Of a DNA stretch of 64,000 bases, positions 21,877 to 38,208 are shown in pieces. This DNA is from Eopsaltria australis. Its lineage: Eukaryota > Chordata > Aves > Passeriformes > Petroicidae. A program made the position numbers and the translations under genes. The notes beneath the pieces were generated by a model. The model was not told where the DNA came from and ran no database searches. It was given only the letters and a program-made list of their open reading frames with translations. Location: assembly GCA_034509425.1 (NCBI GenBank), contig JAVTVJ010000967.1, positions 62,001-126,000 on the forward strand, read 5' to 3'. Positions within the stretch are counted from its first letter, which is position 1; every line of letters starts with the position of its first letter.

Positions 21877-22354
21877 CTCCGACCTCTCGGGGTTCCCTGC
21901 GAGCGACCTGGATACTCAGCAGCGGTCCGGACTGCGCCTTCGGGACGTCGCTCCCCTAGCGAGAACTTCCGCGTTTTAGCGGGGGGCTGGCAGGGGCCGT
22001 CAGCAACCGTTCTGGAGCGTCTGATGTGTGTACGCTAGCTGAGCGAACTGACGAGACCAGAGACCCTTGCTCTTTTGGATGTTTCTCCCTCCGGAGCCGG
22101 TGACGGCAACTGAAGCCGGGATCGAGGAACCAAGACCCGCACGGAGCGGTGAGGTTTGGCGGCTGCGAGGCGCGGTGGGAAAGGACCAGGATCCGCGTGC
22201 GGCGGCGAAGCTCGGTGCCCGTGATAGCGGCGGGAAAGCCACCGAGAACCGAGCGCAGACGGTGAGGTCTAATCCGCGATAGGCAGCGGGACTCAGGCTC
22301 GAGGGAGAGTTTTGTACCGTATAAAAAGAGCAAGGAGGCTTTTATTCGGAGACA

Positions 22355-23785
22355 ATGGGTATTAAGCTGTCCCGAAAAGAGCAGGAGTTTTATGTCCAAG
22401 TTAAAGAGACCCTAAAGTTAAAAAACGGGAAAGCTAATAAGAGGGCTTGGAAACGTTTTGTTAAATGGATCTTTGCCTATGTCCCTCTTCCTTTTGCTTC
22501 TTCTGTTAAAACTCTGAGTTTTTGGGAGGTAGTAGAAAAACGTTTAGAGGCAGTGGAGAGAGGGGGTGATGTTTCTGTCCAAAAATTGTTCCCGTTGTTG
22601 ATTTTAACTTGTTATACTTTGCGTAATTGTCCTGATAGTTCGAAATCCCCGACTCACCCACCCCACGTTCCTAATTCCCCTTTTCCCAATGCCTCTTCCT
22701 CGCTGCAGGGAAGCGCGCCCCTCAGTTCTCCCCACTATGAGACTGATTCCCTCATAGCGAGCTTCACCCCAAACCCTTTCTCCGAGCCCACAGCCAAACT
22801 CGCACCGGCTGCGCTCCCCCATTGTTCCGAGTTTAAAGATGGCGGCGGCCTCGTGGCGCCGTGCCTACACCCCTGCGCCCACTGCGCAGTCTCATACCGA
22901 AAGCCCGCGAATCCTCCCAACTCCTCCCACGGGTCCTTCCCCTTCGCGTCGATTGGCCCCGCGTCGGGTTCCCCCCCCGCGGCCGATGATGTCTTCGCGT
23001 CGGGTCCCTCCCCTCGCGCCGGAGGTCCCTGCCCCAGCCCGAGGGAGATCCCCGCCCCACCCCGCCCCTGGACTGCTCATATCAACTGCAGTCCCACCCC
23101 TGACCACCGCCCACTCGCAGATCCCCACGCTCCCTCATTCACACCCTGGGATTGGGGGCCAAAAAGTGGGGAGGCTGAAGCCTGTGATGCAGCCGGTCAG
23201 CCAGACCCTGCAGTGGCATCAGGTGTGCACAGCCCTCAGGGTAACAACCCACAATGGGAATCACAGTCACCTGCAGCCTTGCGAGAGCCTAGCAAAGTGG
23301 AGAGAGAGCTTGGGAGAGATTCTCCTCACTTTAAAGGTGTGCTGGTCCCATCTGACATAAAAACAATCCTGACAGGCATTTTAGTTAAGGTTCAGTATTG
23401 GGTGTGGGAAAAGATATGGAAGCAGCAGCTTCAAAGCCTGCTGAACAGTTCTAATCACCCTCCACCTAAGTCTTCCACAGCCTCCTGGACACCACATGCT
23501 CCAAAAGCTGAATCCACTGTGTCCTGCTCTCCATCACCACCCATGCCACTGGAGACCCCATCAGAGGCGATCCCAGATGACCAGTCACTTGAGCCACGAT
23601 GGCTGAAGTTAGTAGGCATCACAACTCTCCACCCAACACATCCACCAGAGCAGATCCAGTCGCATCCACCAACAGACGCTGCTCCACAGAGATCAGCGTG
23701 GAAGAGAAGGAAAAAGAAAACTCCAGACTTCGACAGTCATCAAGAAAAATCACTGACACCCTTCTTCTTGAGATCTTCCCATTAG
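22355..23785 (+). CDS. gag: Intact gag-like ORF of K2: matrix domain plus long proline-rich region, no capsid
   Basis: The 476-residue frame starts MGIKLSRKEQEFY (Gly-2, probably myristoylated). About 95 residues form a betaretroviral matrix (KNGKANKRAWKRFVKWIF, then LSFWEVVEKRLEAV). Residues from about 100 to 300 are rich in Pro, Ser and Ala, with PPHV- and PPRP-type motifs. A conserved-looking patch near residues 330-365 contains ILTGILVKVQYWVWEKIW. The C-terminal tail holds a basic cluster (AWKRRKKK) before the stop. Capsid, zinc knuckles, protease and polymerase are absent. An open frame of this length in an element with LTRs about 3% apart is unusual. The product could bind membranes and interfere with or hitch on Gag of relatives, but that is inference. 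Confidence 0.75.
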   Translation: MGIKLSRKEQEFYVQVKETLKLKNGKANKRAWKRFVKWIFAYVPLPFASSVKTLSFWEVVEKRLEAVERGGDVSVQKLFPLLILTCYTLRNCPDSSKSPTHPPHVPNSPFPNASSSLQGSAPLSSPHYETDSLIASFTPNPFSEPTAKLAPAALPHCSEFKDGGGLVAPCLHPCAHCAVSYRKPANPPNSSHGSFPFASIGPASGSPPAADDVFASGPSPRAGGPCPSPREIPAPPRPWTAHINCSPTPDHRPLADPHAPSFTPWDWGPKSGEAEACDAAGQPDPAVASGVHSPQGNNPQWESQSPAALREPSKVERELGRDSPHFKGVLVPSDIKTILTGILVKVQYWVWEKIWKQQLQSLLNSSNHPPPKSSTASWTPHAPKAESTVSCSPSPPMPLETPSEAIPDDQSLEPRWLKLVGITTLHPTHPPEQIQSHPPTDAAPQRSAWKRRKKKTPDFDSHQEKSLTPFFLRSSH

Positions 23786-28527: not shown

Positions 28528-29625
28528 TTAAACTGGGTCTTCTTTGCACAAGCCCTCTAGCGACCCATGGCCCTGGTCATGGAGCCATTTTTCAACAATT
28601 CCTCCTTGTTCCTCTTTTGCAAGCAAAACATTGTGGGTCACTTTGGTTACTTGTTTCATTAAACAGCTATACACAATCTTAACAATTATTATAAACACAA
28701 TAACAACAACACACAATCGAAGGCCTTCAAATAACAAGGTTTGGATCCAACCTGTGATGCCCAATGAGGACAACCATTTAGCTATTCCTAAGTCATTGCT
28801 CACTTGCAATTGCTGGGTGAGCTGAGTCAAAGTTTTTAACTGTGCATGTATTGAATTAGAATGATCAGAGAGATTCATGCAACACATTCCCTCAAATTCT
28901 TCACACCCATGTCCTTGTGCCAACAATAAAAAGTCTATTGCGGCTCTATTTTGCAACGTGGCGTGTCTCACCGAATCCACATCAAGCAACAAATCTGAAA
29001 TTGCTTTAGATGTAGCGTTTGTTTGTTTGGAGAGCCAACAACCTAGTTTGTTCAATTGGGCCAAGGCCCCAGCCGAGGCCACTCCTGGAGCAAGGAAGGA
29101 GGCTGCAATAATAGCAGCAGGCGACCAAAACTCGACATTAGATTTGCAATCAGCAGCAAAGCCGTGTACAAAGCGTTTCAAGCGCCTGAGATGGTGCTGT
29201 CGAAGCTTATTAAGAATCATCGAGGTGTTAGGGGTCAGCAATGTCAACCTTCCAAGAGAACAGGGTCCCCCTTTTATTTTGGAGGGGATACCTGGCCAGG
29301 CTCGATCTCCACAAATGAAAAACATGCCACTAGGTAATTTCAAGGGTTGATTAGTAGAATGGGAAATGTTGGGGGAGGTATAATTGCACCATACACGAGT
29401 GTCTCCATACACTGAAAGGCTAGAGTTCACATGGGCCCAAGCCCCGGGGACCCACACCAAGCCCAGCCCTGGGCCATGGCGGCTACAGCCGGGGCAGGCT
29501 CTTACAATGCCTTTTGCTTCCTGCATTGTTATCTTAAACTGGCGAAAAAGTCCCTTCGCATTTTGGTGAAAGGTACCATGAGCTTCTCCGGCCTTGCTTT
29601 CATCTGAGGGGCCTGGATTGCTCAC
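28528..29625 (-). CDS. env: Integrase-Env fusion ORF of provirus A (365 codons)
   Basis: The frame runs uninterrupted for 365 residues. Residues about 14-50 (AHGTFHQNAKGLFRQFKIT, then RACPGCS) look like the HHCC zinc domain of a retroviral integrase. At about residue 54 it passes without a break into the C-terminal part of an alpharetroviral surface subunit. A furin-type site (RRLKR) lies near residue 150. The transmembrane subunit follows, with an internal hydrophobic fusion-peptide region between cysteines (residues about 158-198), a CX6CC-like motif (CEEFEGMCC, about 242-250), a membrane helix (LRLCVVVIVFIIIVKIVY) and a short tail. The first residues derive from a U3 fragment, and the annotated Met uses a non-ATG codon (GTG), so the true start is unclear. 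There is no signal peptide, so surface expression is doubtful. Confidence 0.75.
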   Translation of the reverse strand: MSNPGPSDESKAGEAHGTFHQNAKGLFRQFKITMQEAKGIVRACPGCSRHGPGLGLVWVPGAWAHVNSSLSVYGDTRVWCNYTSPNISHSTNQPLKLPSGMFFICGDRAWPGIPSKIKGGPCSLGRLTLLTPNTSMILNKLRQHHLRRLKRFVHGFAADCKSNVEFWSPAAIIAASFLAPGVASAGALAQLNKLGCWLSKQTNATSKAISDLLLDVDSVRHATLQNRAAIDFLLLAQGHGCEEFEGMCCMNLSDHSNSIHAQLKTLTQLTQQLQVSNDLGIAKWLSSLGITGWIQTLLFEGLRLCVVVIVFIIIVKIVYSCLMKQVTKVTHNVLLAKEEQGGIVEKWLHDQGHGSLEGLCKEDPV

Positions 29626-32815: not shown

Positions 32816-33200
32816 CTAGGCGCGACCCTCTCGCCTCTGTGCTAAGGGCCTGCGTCTGGCAGGGGCTATCATTTCACCTCTTTTGTCTCCCATGGCGGAG
32901 ACTATTTCTGCTATAAATGTCTGCATTCCCACCGGCACTCGGTTCATCTTTTTTAACATGACCTGAATGGAGGTGTCTGCGGGCAGCGTCTGCTGATTAC
33001 AGTTTTCTAAAACACACTGGCGTAACAGTGCCCCTTGCCTCCACTGCGGCACCCCAGCTGTGATAGCCGCGGATACCCTATCATCCTGCAGGGACTCAAA
33101 GAGCACTGGAAACGCCGCTTCTCCTCGGCTTAAAGTTCTAACGTCCTGAGCTAGTTTTTCATCGCCCTCTTCCAAAGCTTTCTGTTCTACCTTCGCCCAG
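32816..33200 (-). pseudogene. gag: gag capsid piece of provirus A
   Basis: The frame reads an acidic start (LEEGDEKLAQDV), then a capsid-like helical stretch (LLRQCVLENCNQQTL and MNRVPVGMQTFIAEIV). It follows the upstream gag frame after a one-base shift near 33185. It ends in an Arg-rich tail and stops at 32816, well short of a full capsid and without zinc knuckles. I assign it as capsid by position and composition rather than by a clear motif. Confidence 0.55.
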
Positions 33201-34128
33201 CTAATTCTGCGTCTCCCTTCCCCCGCGCGAAACGGAGCAGCGCCCCCGCCTCCACCTCCACCCAGCGAGGGGGGGGCGCGAGCGGCGGCTGGCGCGCCGG
33301 CGGCTGCTCCTGCCGAGAAGGGACACTGCTTCCTCGCACCGGGCGAGAAGGCATAGAATCGCCCGGGGTGGGGGGCAAAGCCGGCTGATCTTCCTCCTGT
33401 GGTTCAGCCGGTGCACAGGGGAGGGGCGGACACCCCTCCTCCGGCTGCGGCGGCGCGGGCGCCGGGGCGGCCGATTGCTCCGCGCAAACAGCGGCCGCCT
33501 CCGGGGCAACGCCGTGCTCGGGCGGCGAGCCGTGCACCTCCAGCACCATACACCTCCCTACTGCCGGCAGGCTGGGCGTTTCGTTACCAATGCCGAGCAT
33601 TCCCGGGATAGGGCGCTCACCTCCCGGAGTCCCCCCGCTCCCTTCCGTGATTCCTTCTAGTTTTGCCGTGGTTACGGCTGCAACTTTTTTCTCTGCCTGG
33701 TATCTTTGCAAACAGGTCGTTACCTCCCTCCAGGGCTTCCCAAGTTTCGCGCATGCTTTGTTGCTGTCTAGAATTCCCTCAAACAACTGATCCCCATATT
33801 TCCGCCATTCAGGCAGGTCAAAGATCGTATTAGGGTCCCTGAAGCAACCCTTTTCTACTCCTAACGTAACTAATCCTGTCACCTGTTTTAAGGTGTCTTT
33901 GCTAACTCCCCGCTTTTCCAAAAAGCGTGTTAACAAATCTACGGCTACCTGCGAATCCATCTCCGTCCAGCTGGTTAACCTCTCCAGGCTGATCGCAGTG
34001 GCCTCCGCGTCCCTCCGCGCCGGCCCCTCCGCGTCTTTCCGCGCCGCGTCTATGCGCCGATCGCGATCGCCACGCAGCCTTTCCGAGTATAGCCGTTCTC
34101 GGGCGGCGGACCCCTCTCCGAGGTCCAA
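33187..34128 (-). pseudogene. gag: gag N-terminal part of provirus A: matrix and proline-rich linker
   Basis: The open frame has 313 codons. A plausible true start is the internal Met at 33960 (MDSQVAVDLLTRFLEKRG), which begins an alpharetrovirus-like matrix of about 90 residues. Upstream residues are charged and repetitive and are probably leader. From about residue 170 the frame is rich in Pro, Ala and Glu, with PPxP motifs that may serve as late-domain-like sites. It ends at a stop where the capsid frame begins one base out of register. GC content is much higher than in the surroundings. Confidence 0.65.
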
Positions 34129-34245
34129 GCGATCGGATCCCCCCTTCGCCGCGCAAAGGGTATAGATCTTCGCTCCCCGGTTGCTGCTACCGGTGCTTTC
34201 CCGATCCCGCCGGTCCGGTCCCGCACGTCGACTCCGTCTCTGTCG

Positions 34246-34263
34246 CGCACGTCGGGGTCACCA
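34246..34263 (-). promoter_or_regulatory. Primer binding site of provirus A, tRNA-Trp type
   Basis: The minus strand reads TGGTGACCCCGACGTGCG two bases inside the LTR. The first 16 bases match the tRNA-Trp site used by alpharetroviruses. Confidence 0.9.
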
Positions 34264-35611: not shown

Positions 35612-35746
35612 TGTTATGACCCAGTTGGTAAAATGTTAGGATCTAGTTATTAAGGTTCTTAGAAATACCCCTGCCCGATTTAAGGTGCAAAGAAGACCAT
35701 ATGCCAGTGACAATAGCAAAAGTTTTATTTGACACGAAACATGAAA

Positions 35747-35768
35747 GAGAGAGAGAGAGAGAGAGAGA
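35747..35768. repeat. GA dinucleotide microsatellite
   Basis: About eleven GA units, followed by an A-rich stretch, lie near the 3' end of the LTR-like element at 35612. Confidence 0.9.
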
Positions 35769-36099
35769 AAAAAAAAGAAATAAGAAATAGGTGGGGGGGC
35801 AGAGAGAAACAGGGACAGAATAAAGAAAATATCACCACTCCATGGATCCCAACGACAGTCTGTTGATCCTCTCCAGCTGGTCTTCTTGGTGGTGAAAGTC
35901 CCCCCAAAAAGCTTGGAATCTGATGGGTTTATATACCCTCGAGTCAGGTAGCAATGTCCAGGCATGTCCCCCTGGGGGAGGGAGGGCAGTCTCTTGCAGC
36001 AGACTCTGGATCTGTTGCGTCACATGCAGTCTTGTAGAGCAAGGCCTAGCACTTTGGGGGGCGTCTTTGATGGATTGTGACTCCCCCTCAGCTGCCTCT

Positions 36100-36561
36100 T
36101 GTTGGGTTACACTATGTGTGTTATAGAAAAGCAGGCCTGGAAGGCCCAGAGGTGAGCCTCTTCCCTAGGCCCGGAGGTGACCAGGAAGCATATCCAGGTC
36201 ACCAGGGATGGACATGGGAAAGAGGATCATGGGTTTGTGGCCTTCTGCACCTATTATGTGAGAGTATTGTAGGTTGTGACCTTAGAGGGTATTGTTTATC
36301 TTTTCTGTTTATATGATGGCACATCCTGGGTGTGGGATGGTATAAAGGGAATTTTCACTGTGTAGTAGAGGGGAGTAGCCATAGGGGAGTAGCCATAAGG
36401 GAGTAGCCATAGCAGTAGCCATAATAGGAGTCATAGGAGTAGTCTTAGCAAGTAGTCATAGAGTGATCTGTAGTAGTCTTATTCTCTGTCTGTATAATAA
36501 AGGACCTTGCAACATCACAGTCTCATCAGAGAAGTCCGATGCCCCTGCGTTGAATACTGCA
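36100..36561 (+). repeat. Y1: solo LTR (462 bp), target duplication GCCTCT
   Basis: It begins TGTTGGGTTACACTATG and ends TTGAATACTGCA. GCCTCT flanks it at 36094-36099 and 36562-36567. A TATA-like GGTATAAAG is near 36330 and AATAAA near 36496. Between them is a minisatellite of GAGTAGCCATAGG-type units (36365-36445). Confidence 0.95.
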
Positions 36562-37027
36562 GCCTCTCAAATGAAAGTCCCATGGATCAGGCCTGTGGGG
36601 TTGGGGGGTGCTACAGCTGGGCCGGAGGATGGGCATTCATTGCCTCTGACCAGGGGTTATGCCACACCTGAAACCTCCACTCCCCCCCTCAGTTGGTGGG
36701 GGGGGGGGGGGTTATCCATGTAAACCTGGCTTCTGTGAGCTGTGCTCTACCCCCACCCAAACTTGGCCACAGTTGGTGGCTTTGGCCTTTTGTGGATGCA
36801 AACTTTCTCCTCAGCCTGAGATGACTGAACAATGGGCTTCCCTTTATCTAATCAGCAGTTTGACTTACAGTCCAAAGTTCCAGGCAGGTATCTTCAGGGA
36901 AGCTTCTTTGGTTGTAGCTTCTTTATACAGTTTTGGTTATGATGAGCAAAAGTTTATACCAGTGTATGAGGCATGAACTATTTCTGTCTCTGACATATAT
37001 CCTCAAAATAATATCAGAAACAATTAC

Positions 37028-37692
37028 TCATCATACTTGACATGATAGATAGCTTCTTCCTCAGTGTCCATGCAGTCTGAGTAAGATATGGATGGTCTAC
37101 TGTCCAAATAATTTGTATTCTCTCTAGAATGATCTTGACTTAAGTTTCCTGATGCAGTGTGAAATGACCTAGTGGAATTATGTCCCACCTGTCCCTGCAG
37201 GACCCCTCATGGAGGTCCTCAGGCAGTGCTTCACGCAGCACCTACGAAAAAGATAAGCCCACCCCTGTAGGTGATAACAGAGGGCCACTTACACACCGGG
37301 ATGCGTCCTTGGAGACAAAGAGACTGGAGGGTCCATCCACATGCTGTTCTAAGGAGTTTATTGTGTCCTCCTCAAAGGGGAGGCAGAACTGAATGGCCGG
37401 GGGCAGACAGGAAACAGGTCTGTTTTATACGGGGGCGGGTAGGGGGTGTGTAGGGGCAGAGACAAAGCTGATTGACATTAACATGAGCCAATGGGGAGAG
37501 GGGAGGGGAAAGGGGCCAAGAGCCAATGGGGAGCTGACTACAACAGTTTCCATTAATCCTTCTGTAAGAATTGCCAGTCTTTACTTCACCTTTTCCATTA
37601 TTATGTTCTTCTGTTGCTCGAGTGACAATTTCTATGTGGGCGTCAAACCAGGCTCCAATGCTGACATCACGGGCATCCAGCAATTCATTTAC
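37028..37692 (-). pseudogene. UHRF2: Exon of a UHRF2-like gene (tandem Tudor start), split by a solo LTR
   Basis: On the minus strand a splice acceptor (TTTTCCTTTTAG at 37693-37704) opens a frame reading VNELLDARDVSIGAWFDAHI. That is the start of the UHRF-family tandem Tudor domain, which binds methylated histone H3. The frame continues past the inserted LTR (37150-37545) as NLSQDHSRENTNYLDSRP and ends IYHVKYDE at a donor (GATGA|GTAATT, 37028). The Asn- and Ser-rich linker fits UHRF2 rather than UHRF1. Without the LTR and one duplication copy the exon is 263 bp, open, with both splice sites. With the LTR it stops at 37372. No other UHRF2 exon was found in the window. UHRF2 maps to 9p24 in human, which corresponds to the avian Z, so this may be a decayed W gametolog or a duplicate. 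Confidence 0.85.
37150..37545 (-). repeat. Z: solo LTR (396 bp) inside the UHRF2-like exon, target duplication GTTTCC
   Basis: On the minus strand it begins TGTTGTAGTCAGC and ends CACTGCATCA. GTTTCC flanks it at 37144-37149 and 37546-37551. A TATA box (CGTATAAAAC) is near 37430 and AATAAA near 37355, both on the minus strand, so it points the same way as the gene. Confidence 0.95.
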
Positions 37693-37694
37693 CT

Positions 37695-38208
37695 AAAAGG
37701 AAAATTTAATAATGAATATTTATTTTCTGTAATCCTGGTTAAGAACAGAAAGGAAAACTGACTAAACTATTTAACTGTCAGTGAAAAGAATTCTACACTG
37801 CTGATTTCAACTGGTTTGAGCTTGCATAAATGAGAACAATGTTCAGTCATTCAAGTGTTGTGCTTTAAGCATTTTTTTCCTCTACTGTTAATAAGATCTC
37901 TTATGAACACAATTGGTATAAAATATTTTTTTAAAAGTTGAGGATGATTTATTATTTTTTAACCTACAAAGTAGCTTAATCTCTCTTTCCACTCAACTTT
38001 TTTTTACGTCATGGAATTGTTCCATTTGACTAAAAGAAGCACATATGCTTAAAATACTAGCCAACAACCGGATTTTAAGACTTCCCTGGACTTCCAAATT
38101 TGAATAATTACTTAAGCCAGATACTTTTTGGTGTGCGCTTCTGCTGAATCCTTTAGTGTTTGAGAAACACTTGGAAAGTCCATCTCCTCCCTCCTAACAA
38201 GGCTGCTG
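37695..38208. other. Presumed intron of the UHRF2-like gene
   Basis: It directly follows the splice acceptor of the exon (on its 5' side in gene orientation). AT-rich, no repeat or coding feature recognised. Confidence 0.6.

Follow-up and report, generated by a model that had tools for sequence, protein, structure and literature searches.

Decayed copies of Z genes have been described on the W chromosomes of birds. In the collared flycatcher, W pseudogenes are reported for IFNB, FCHO2, SMC2, NTRK2, and HOMER1, and the mean Z-W dS is given as 0.262 for the young stratum and 0.330 for the old stratum (PMC4468903). The term UHRF is absent from the main text of that study, as are SPIN1 and UBE2R2, so this text is not decisive on whether UHRF2 belongs to the flycatcher list. 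The Z-transposed regions of songbird W chromosomes are another class of decaying W copies of Z genes, made at the DNA level (PMC7692361). Avian W chromosomes are rich in ERVs, and the report on this accumulation covers ERV density and activity (PMC8310711). UHRF2 itself is assigned to the Z in a table from a study of dosage compensation in birds (PMC2373894). Within the open-access literature, with subscription papers mostly outside the search, UHRF2 was not found in connection with 'W chromosome' or 'W-linked', and a literature search for UHRF2 on the germline-restricted chromosome likewise returned nothing.

The window analyzed here is a stretch of 64,000 nucleotides, corresponding to bases 62001-126000 of the 263-kb contig C896 of Eopsaltria australis, and the genome searched comprises 1.17 Gb in 5,919 contigs. 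On the reverse strand at 37028-37692, the window contains exon 3 of a copy of UHRF2, in which the tandem Tudor domain starts, and this exon is split by an LTR (Table 1). UHRF2 reads methylation marks on DNA and histones. The locus is most likely a remnant of a second, decayed UHRF2 copy, namely the W gametolog of the Z-linked UHRF2 in a female bird, with a probability of about 0.62. It would share with the flycatcher W pseudogenes the descent from a Z gene, the lack of function on the W, and perhaps the level of Z-W dS. Those pseudogenes are characterized by internal stops and/or frameshifts (PMC4468903); here the exon is split by a solo LTR, and the majority of the exons were not recovered. 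A high density of ERVs and solo LTRs in DNA limited to females would be the feature in common with the described ERV accumulation on the W (PMC8310711). A decayed fragment of a probable gametolog with a solo LTR is an ordinary kind of event that is already known. The locus illustrates in detail what is likely to be decay of the W, with an ERV scar in a host exon and the empty site preserved on the other copy.

Table 1. Features of the split UHRF2 exon and its surroundings, in window coordinates
Feature	Position	Strand	Remarks
Intron 3 segment	35504..35611	-	81% identical to C1140:206143-206251
Second insertion, 1,388 bp	35612..36999	.	Absent from C1140, ends 28 bp beyond exon
UHRF2 exon 3, 3' part	37028..37143	-	Up to GT donor
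Target site duplication GTTTCC, low-coordinate copy	37144..37149	.	
Solo LTR, 396 bp	37150..37545	-	Sense to gene; TG...CA, direct repeat, related copies
AATAAA in LTR	37362-37357	-	Gene sense
First in-frame stop TGA	37372..37374	-	Inside LTR
TATAAA in LTR	37429-37424	-	Gene sense
Target site duplication GTTTCC, high-coordinate copy	37546..37551	.	Counted within exon
UHRF2 exon 3, 5' part	37546..37692	-	49 codons, tandem Tudor start
Intron 2 end and acceptor	37693..37717	-	Similar to C1140
Intron 2 segment	42834..42968	-	76% identical to C1140:207889-208022

The affiliation to UHRF2 was recognized from the 49 residues ahead of the LTR. They score above the Pfam threshold of the tandem Tudor domain (TTD) of UHRF proteins and match the human UHRF2 chain in PDB with an e-value of 3.6e-12, compared with 3.3e-6 for the best UHRF1 chain, so that the UHRF2-like identity proposed in the initial annotation is confirmed and a UHRF1 origin of the exon is ruled out. 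The TTD and SRA family searches of the genome scored all candidates (6/6 and 10/10, respectively). Five TTD matches were obtained; four belong to UHRF1 and to a UHRF2 on contig C1140, and the remaining one is the window exon.

The extent of the exon and its open frame on both sides, both already proposed from the sequence, agree with the acceptor, the donor, and the alignment of the joined flanks. When the flanks were joined by a script, the exon was open and aligned without gaps with the C1140 exon over 88 codons, the 88th including one base beyond the donor (263 exon bases and the base that begins the intron), with 38 differences and no indels. The acceptor AG (TTTTAG/GTAAAT) and the donor GT (GATGA/GTAATT) are both present. 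The two sites had been described as intact; this holds for the acceptor and for the GT of the donor, but is generous for the donor as a whole, because its G at +5 is lost (GTAAGT on C1140, GTAATT in the window copy). Without joining, the frame enters the LTR and terminates at codon 107, at the very TGA that had been pointed out.

The interrupting element has TG...CA ends, a target site duplication, and related copies elsewhere, and its internal part is absent, as expected of a solo LTR; its length and the perfect GTTTCC duplication are as originally described. The UHRF2 on C1140 carries the empty site without the LTR. A target duplication of 6 bp is known from ERVK and alpharetrovirus types. 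The window LTR was compared with 27 other copies, mostly the best-scoring of 43 other rows, the 16 rows left out being partial in many cases. The distances range from 0.084 to 0.235, the nearest copies differ by 8-12%, and the own branch of the window LTR in the tree with these copies is 0.048. The 27 copies sit on 24 contigs, and 18 of these contigs are shorter than 500 kb, a count for which no background was computed. At a substitution rate of 1-2e-9 per site per year the branch, which gives no more than an upper limit for the age, would correspond to up to about 24-48 million years. Judged from its branch, the LTR can be old, and neither this upper bound nor the 8-12% difference from the nearest copies supports the earlier suggestion of a fairly recent insertion.

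The intron pieces on either side of exon 3 are homologous to and collinear with C1140, and the intron 2 segment, searched against the genome, matches solely the window and C1140. Because unique intron DNA is kept, the window copy is a DNA copy with introns, and a retrocopy is ruled out. The copy is about 14% diverged from the UHRF2 on C1140; this divergence, together with the exons missing among the scored candidates, rules out a haplotig of the C1140 copy. About 300 bp of the second insertion are repeated on contig C6 at 92%.

The initial annotation had recommended a search for a second, intact UHRF2 in the assembly, and an intact-looking copy of 16 exons is indeed found on C1140. Its 16 exon matches run in one direction over 78 kb, and the matched stretches are open, the splice sites having been judged by eye. 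GLDC, which we take to be the neighbour of UHRF2, matches on C1140 only (6/6 rows). With UHRF2 and GLDC on the same contig, C1140 has the appearance of a Z-type copy with conserved neighbours.

The window locus is a gene fragment and not a gene, since exon 3 alone was matched on C896. A direct exon scan of the first 126 kb of C896 gave no convincing match to any other UHRF2 exon; bases 126001-263241 were covered by the genome-wide searches. In the genome search for UHRF2 exons, 57 of 83 candidates were scored, which leaves absence short of absolute; within this scope, 14 of the 16 exons of the window-type copy were not found genome-wide, and the set of UBL, TTD, PHD, SRA, and RING exons was not found at the locus. 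With the UHRF2 query, 12 exon rows of UHRF1 (contig C667) were picked up at 48-82% identity; therefore, the exon search detects exons more distant than those of a W copy would be. The only further exon of this third copy among the scored candidates is exon 2 on C6 (1787040-1787282, reverse strand), which is open, has AG and GT, contains two in-frame gaps, and is about 84% identical to C1140. No TTD match was found on C6 (6/6 candidates scored), though 1.78 Mb follows in the gene direction. With exon 3 on C896, exon 2 on C6, and no TTD on C6, either the copy is dismembered or the contigs do not reproduce the arrangement in the bird.

As most of the window copy was not found and an intact-looking UHRF2 is present elsewhere, ordinary sex-chromosome decay is the explanation that suggests itself. 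Once recombination between Z and W had ceased, rearrangements, deletions, and the insertion of retroelements would have fragmented the copy on the W; a provirus would have entered its exon 3 and later recombined to the solo LTR.

Several observations bear on the linkage to the W. CHD1, SPIN1, and NIPBL, which we take to be Z-W pairs, were found on two contigs each, and the assembly accordingly looks female. There are three CHD1-family loci; two of them share 64-73% identical DNA well past the exon, and the third matches one of these over the exon only. Repeats shared with the CHD1 contigs gave no indication of which contig is the W. None of the three genes was found on C896 or C6, an absence that says little about C896 because three genes were tried and the contig is 263 kb long. 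ERV protein matches from seven queries make up 17.8% of C896 over its first 126 kb, and none fall in 130 kb of C1140, a comparison that favours C896 because six of the seven query reading frames were taken from C896 itself. When the two halves of the C896 stretch are compared, 12.5% of the first consists of close repeats of the second, against 1.2% for C1140. We infer W linkage of C896 on good grounds, rather than report it as a result.

The fragment could alternatively be a UHRF2 segmental duplicate, located in ERV-rich autosomal or Z DNA, which is considered unlikely. The contig with exon 2 speaks for such a duplicate, as C6 looks ordinary in the pieces sampled at 0.5, 1.2, and 1.7 Mb, whereas ERV-rich, W-like DNA was seen near its end only. 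The pieces from these three positions have no repeats in common with C896, and one interspersed repeat was all that the 0.5 Mb piece matched elsewhere (40/107 candidates scored); C6 therefore does not look W-like overall. In the 8 kb around exon 2, close repeats common to C896 make up 44.6%, compared with 3.5% for C1140. C6 either passes from ordinary to W-like DNA or is misjoined. Against the duplicate, the Z-W-like dS, the female signs, and the ERV density of C896 fit a W gametolog without any further event. The region of C6 with exon 2 (1783001-1791000) may be the place where female-limited DNA begins, or a point of misassembly. Near 1.90 Mb on C6 (L067:374-1750), there is an open frame of 458 aa with a strong match to Gag p24.

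If the fragment is the W gametolog, the next question is whether the LTR ended its function. According to the initial annotation, the locus may be a W-linked gametolog killed by an ERV, or a duplicate. The gametolog part is the best reading, in view of UHRF2 and GLDC on C1140, the Z table, and the paired contigs. The killing by an ERV is not shown, as exon 2 is located on a different contig and the majority of the exons were not recovered. That the W copy worked until the LTR landed in exon 3 and thereby killed UHRF2 is improbable on balance, although exons 2 and 3 keep their frame and splice signals and have gaps in frame only.

The divergence between the window/C6 copy and C1140 was analyzed over exons 2 and 3 (169 codons). 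The dS is 0.24-0.28, close to the flycatcher means (PMC4468903), but this value combines unequal exons, with 0.16-0.19 in exon 2 and 0.36-0.42 in exon 3. By three methods, dN/dS is 0.26-0.33 in exon 3, where an excess of synonymous changes (Fisher p 0.0007, from rounded counts) favours a copy that worked until the insertion. The pairwise dN/dS includes the constraint on the C1140 copy, and exon 2, at 0.8-1.0, points the other way. So do the protein changes polarised with human UHRF2: 17 fall on the window-type copy and 7 on C1140, with 19 ambiguous.

The chance that the frames survived under neutrality was also estimated. The excess of changes on the Z, 1.57-fold in the flycatcher, translates to 39% on the W (PMC4468903). 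With 39% to half of the changes on the W copy (28-36 changes) and indel ratios of 0.05-0.10, exon 3 would stay open with a chance of 0.11-0.32 and both exons with 0.02-0.13. The indel ratio of the LTR copies is 0.084. The ratio of the two intron pieces is higher (7 gaps to 42 mismatches), and at this ratio, calculated by hand, the chances drop to about 0.04-0.08 for exon 3 and under 0.01 for both exons. When all changes are placed on the W, they are 0.014-0.065 and at most 0.005, respectively. Because these chances are low, past constraint on the window-type copy appears likely from the sequences compared. The open frames give no date for the end of this constraint and do not tie that end to the LTR. 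Hence, the earlier argument from the open frame to selection has fair but moderate support as regards past constraint, and does not extend to an end of constraint at the insertion.

As 14 of the 16 exons were not found among the scored candidates, other lesions may predate the LTR. We regard it as more probably one of several scars than the established reason for the loss of the copy, and its insertion as the recent killer of the W copy is possible. A wider scenario, in which UHRF2 remained functional on the bird W long past the stop of recombination and was then lost by retroelement insertion and rearrangement, a regulatory gametolog caught dying, is rather doubtful. Long retention of UHRF2 on the W, if it proved true, would place a chromatin regulator among the dosage-sensitive genes that this chromosome keeps.

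A piece transposed later from the Z to the W and now decayed is very unlikely as the source of the fragment. Such transfers are known in songbirds, but the two that are dated are placed before 4 and at 8.3 million years (PMC7692361), much younger than the gametolog considered here, for which the divergence is about 14% and the dS resembles that of old gametologs.

Any transcript would run into the stop and an AATAAA in sense orientation within the LTR. Unless splicing bypasses the LTR, the locus should therefore not yield UHRF2 with a complete tandem Tudor domain. Together with the TATAAA, likewise in sense orientation, the AATAAA would allow the LTR to provide a promoter or a poly(A) site for a short product of a still transcribed copy, which is scarcely credible given the lack of any upstream exon match on C896 and the changed +5 base of the donor.

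Other open frames were recognized in the window and on C896. The frame at 28531-29625 of the window has matches to an avian retrovirus gp85-like envelope and to an integrase zinc-binding domain, and the 486-aa frame at 22325-23782 has a weak Gag p24 match under the curated cut-off. A 248-aa frame at C896:38527-39270 looks coiled-coil-like by eye, has no Pfam match, and might be a gene remnant. The 355-aa frame at 33191-34257 of the window, in GC-rich DNA and also with no Pfam match, is perhaps a CpG-rich promoter or a product of chance.
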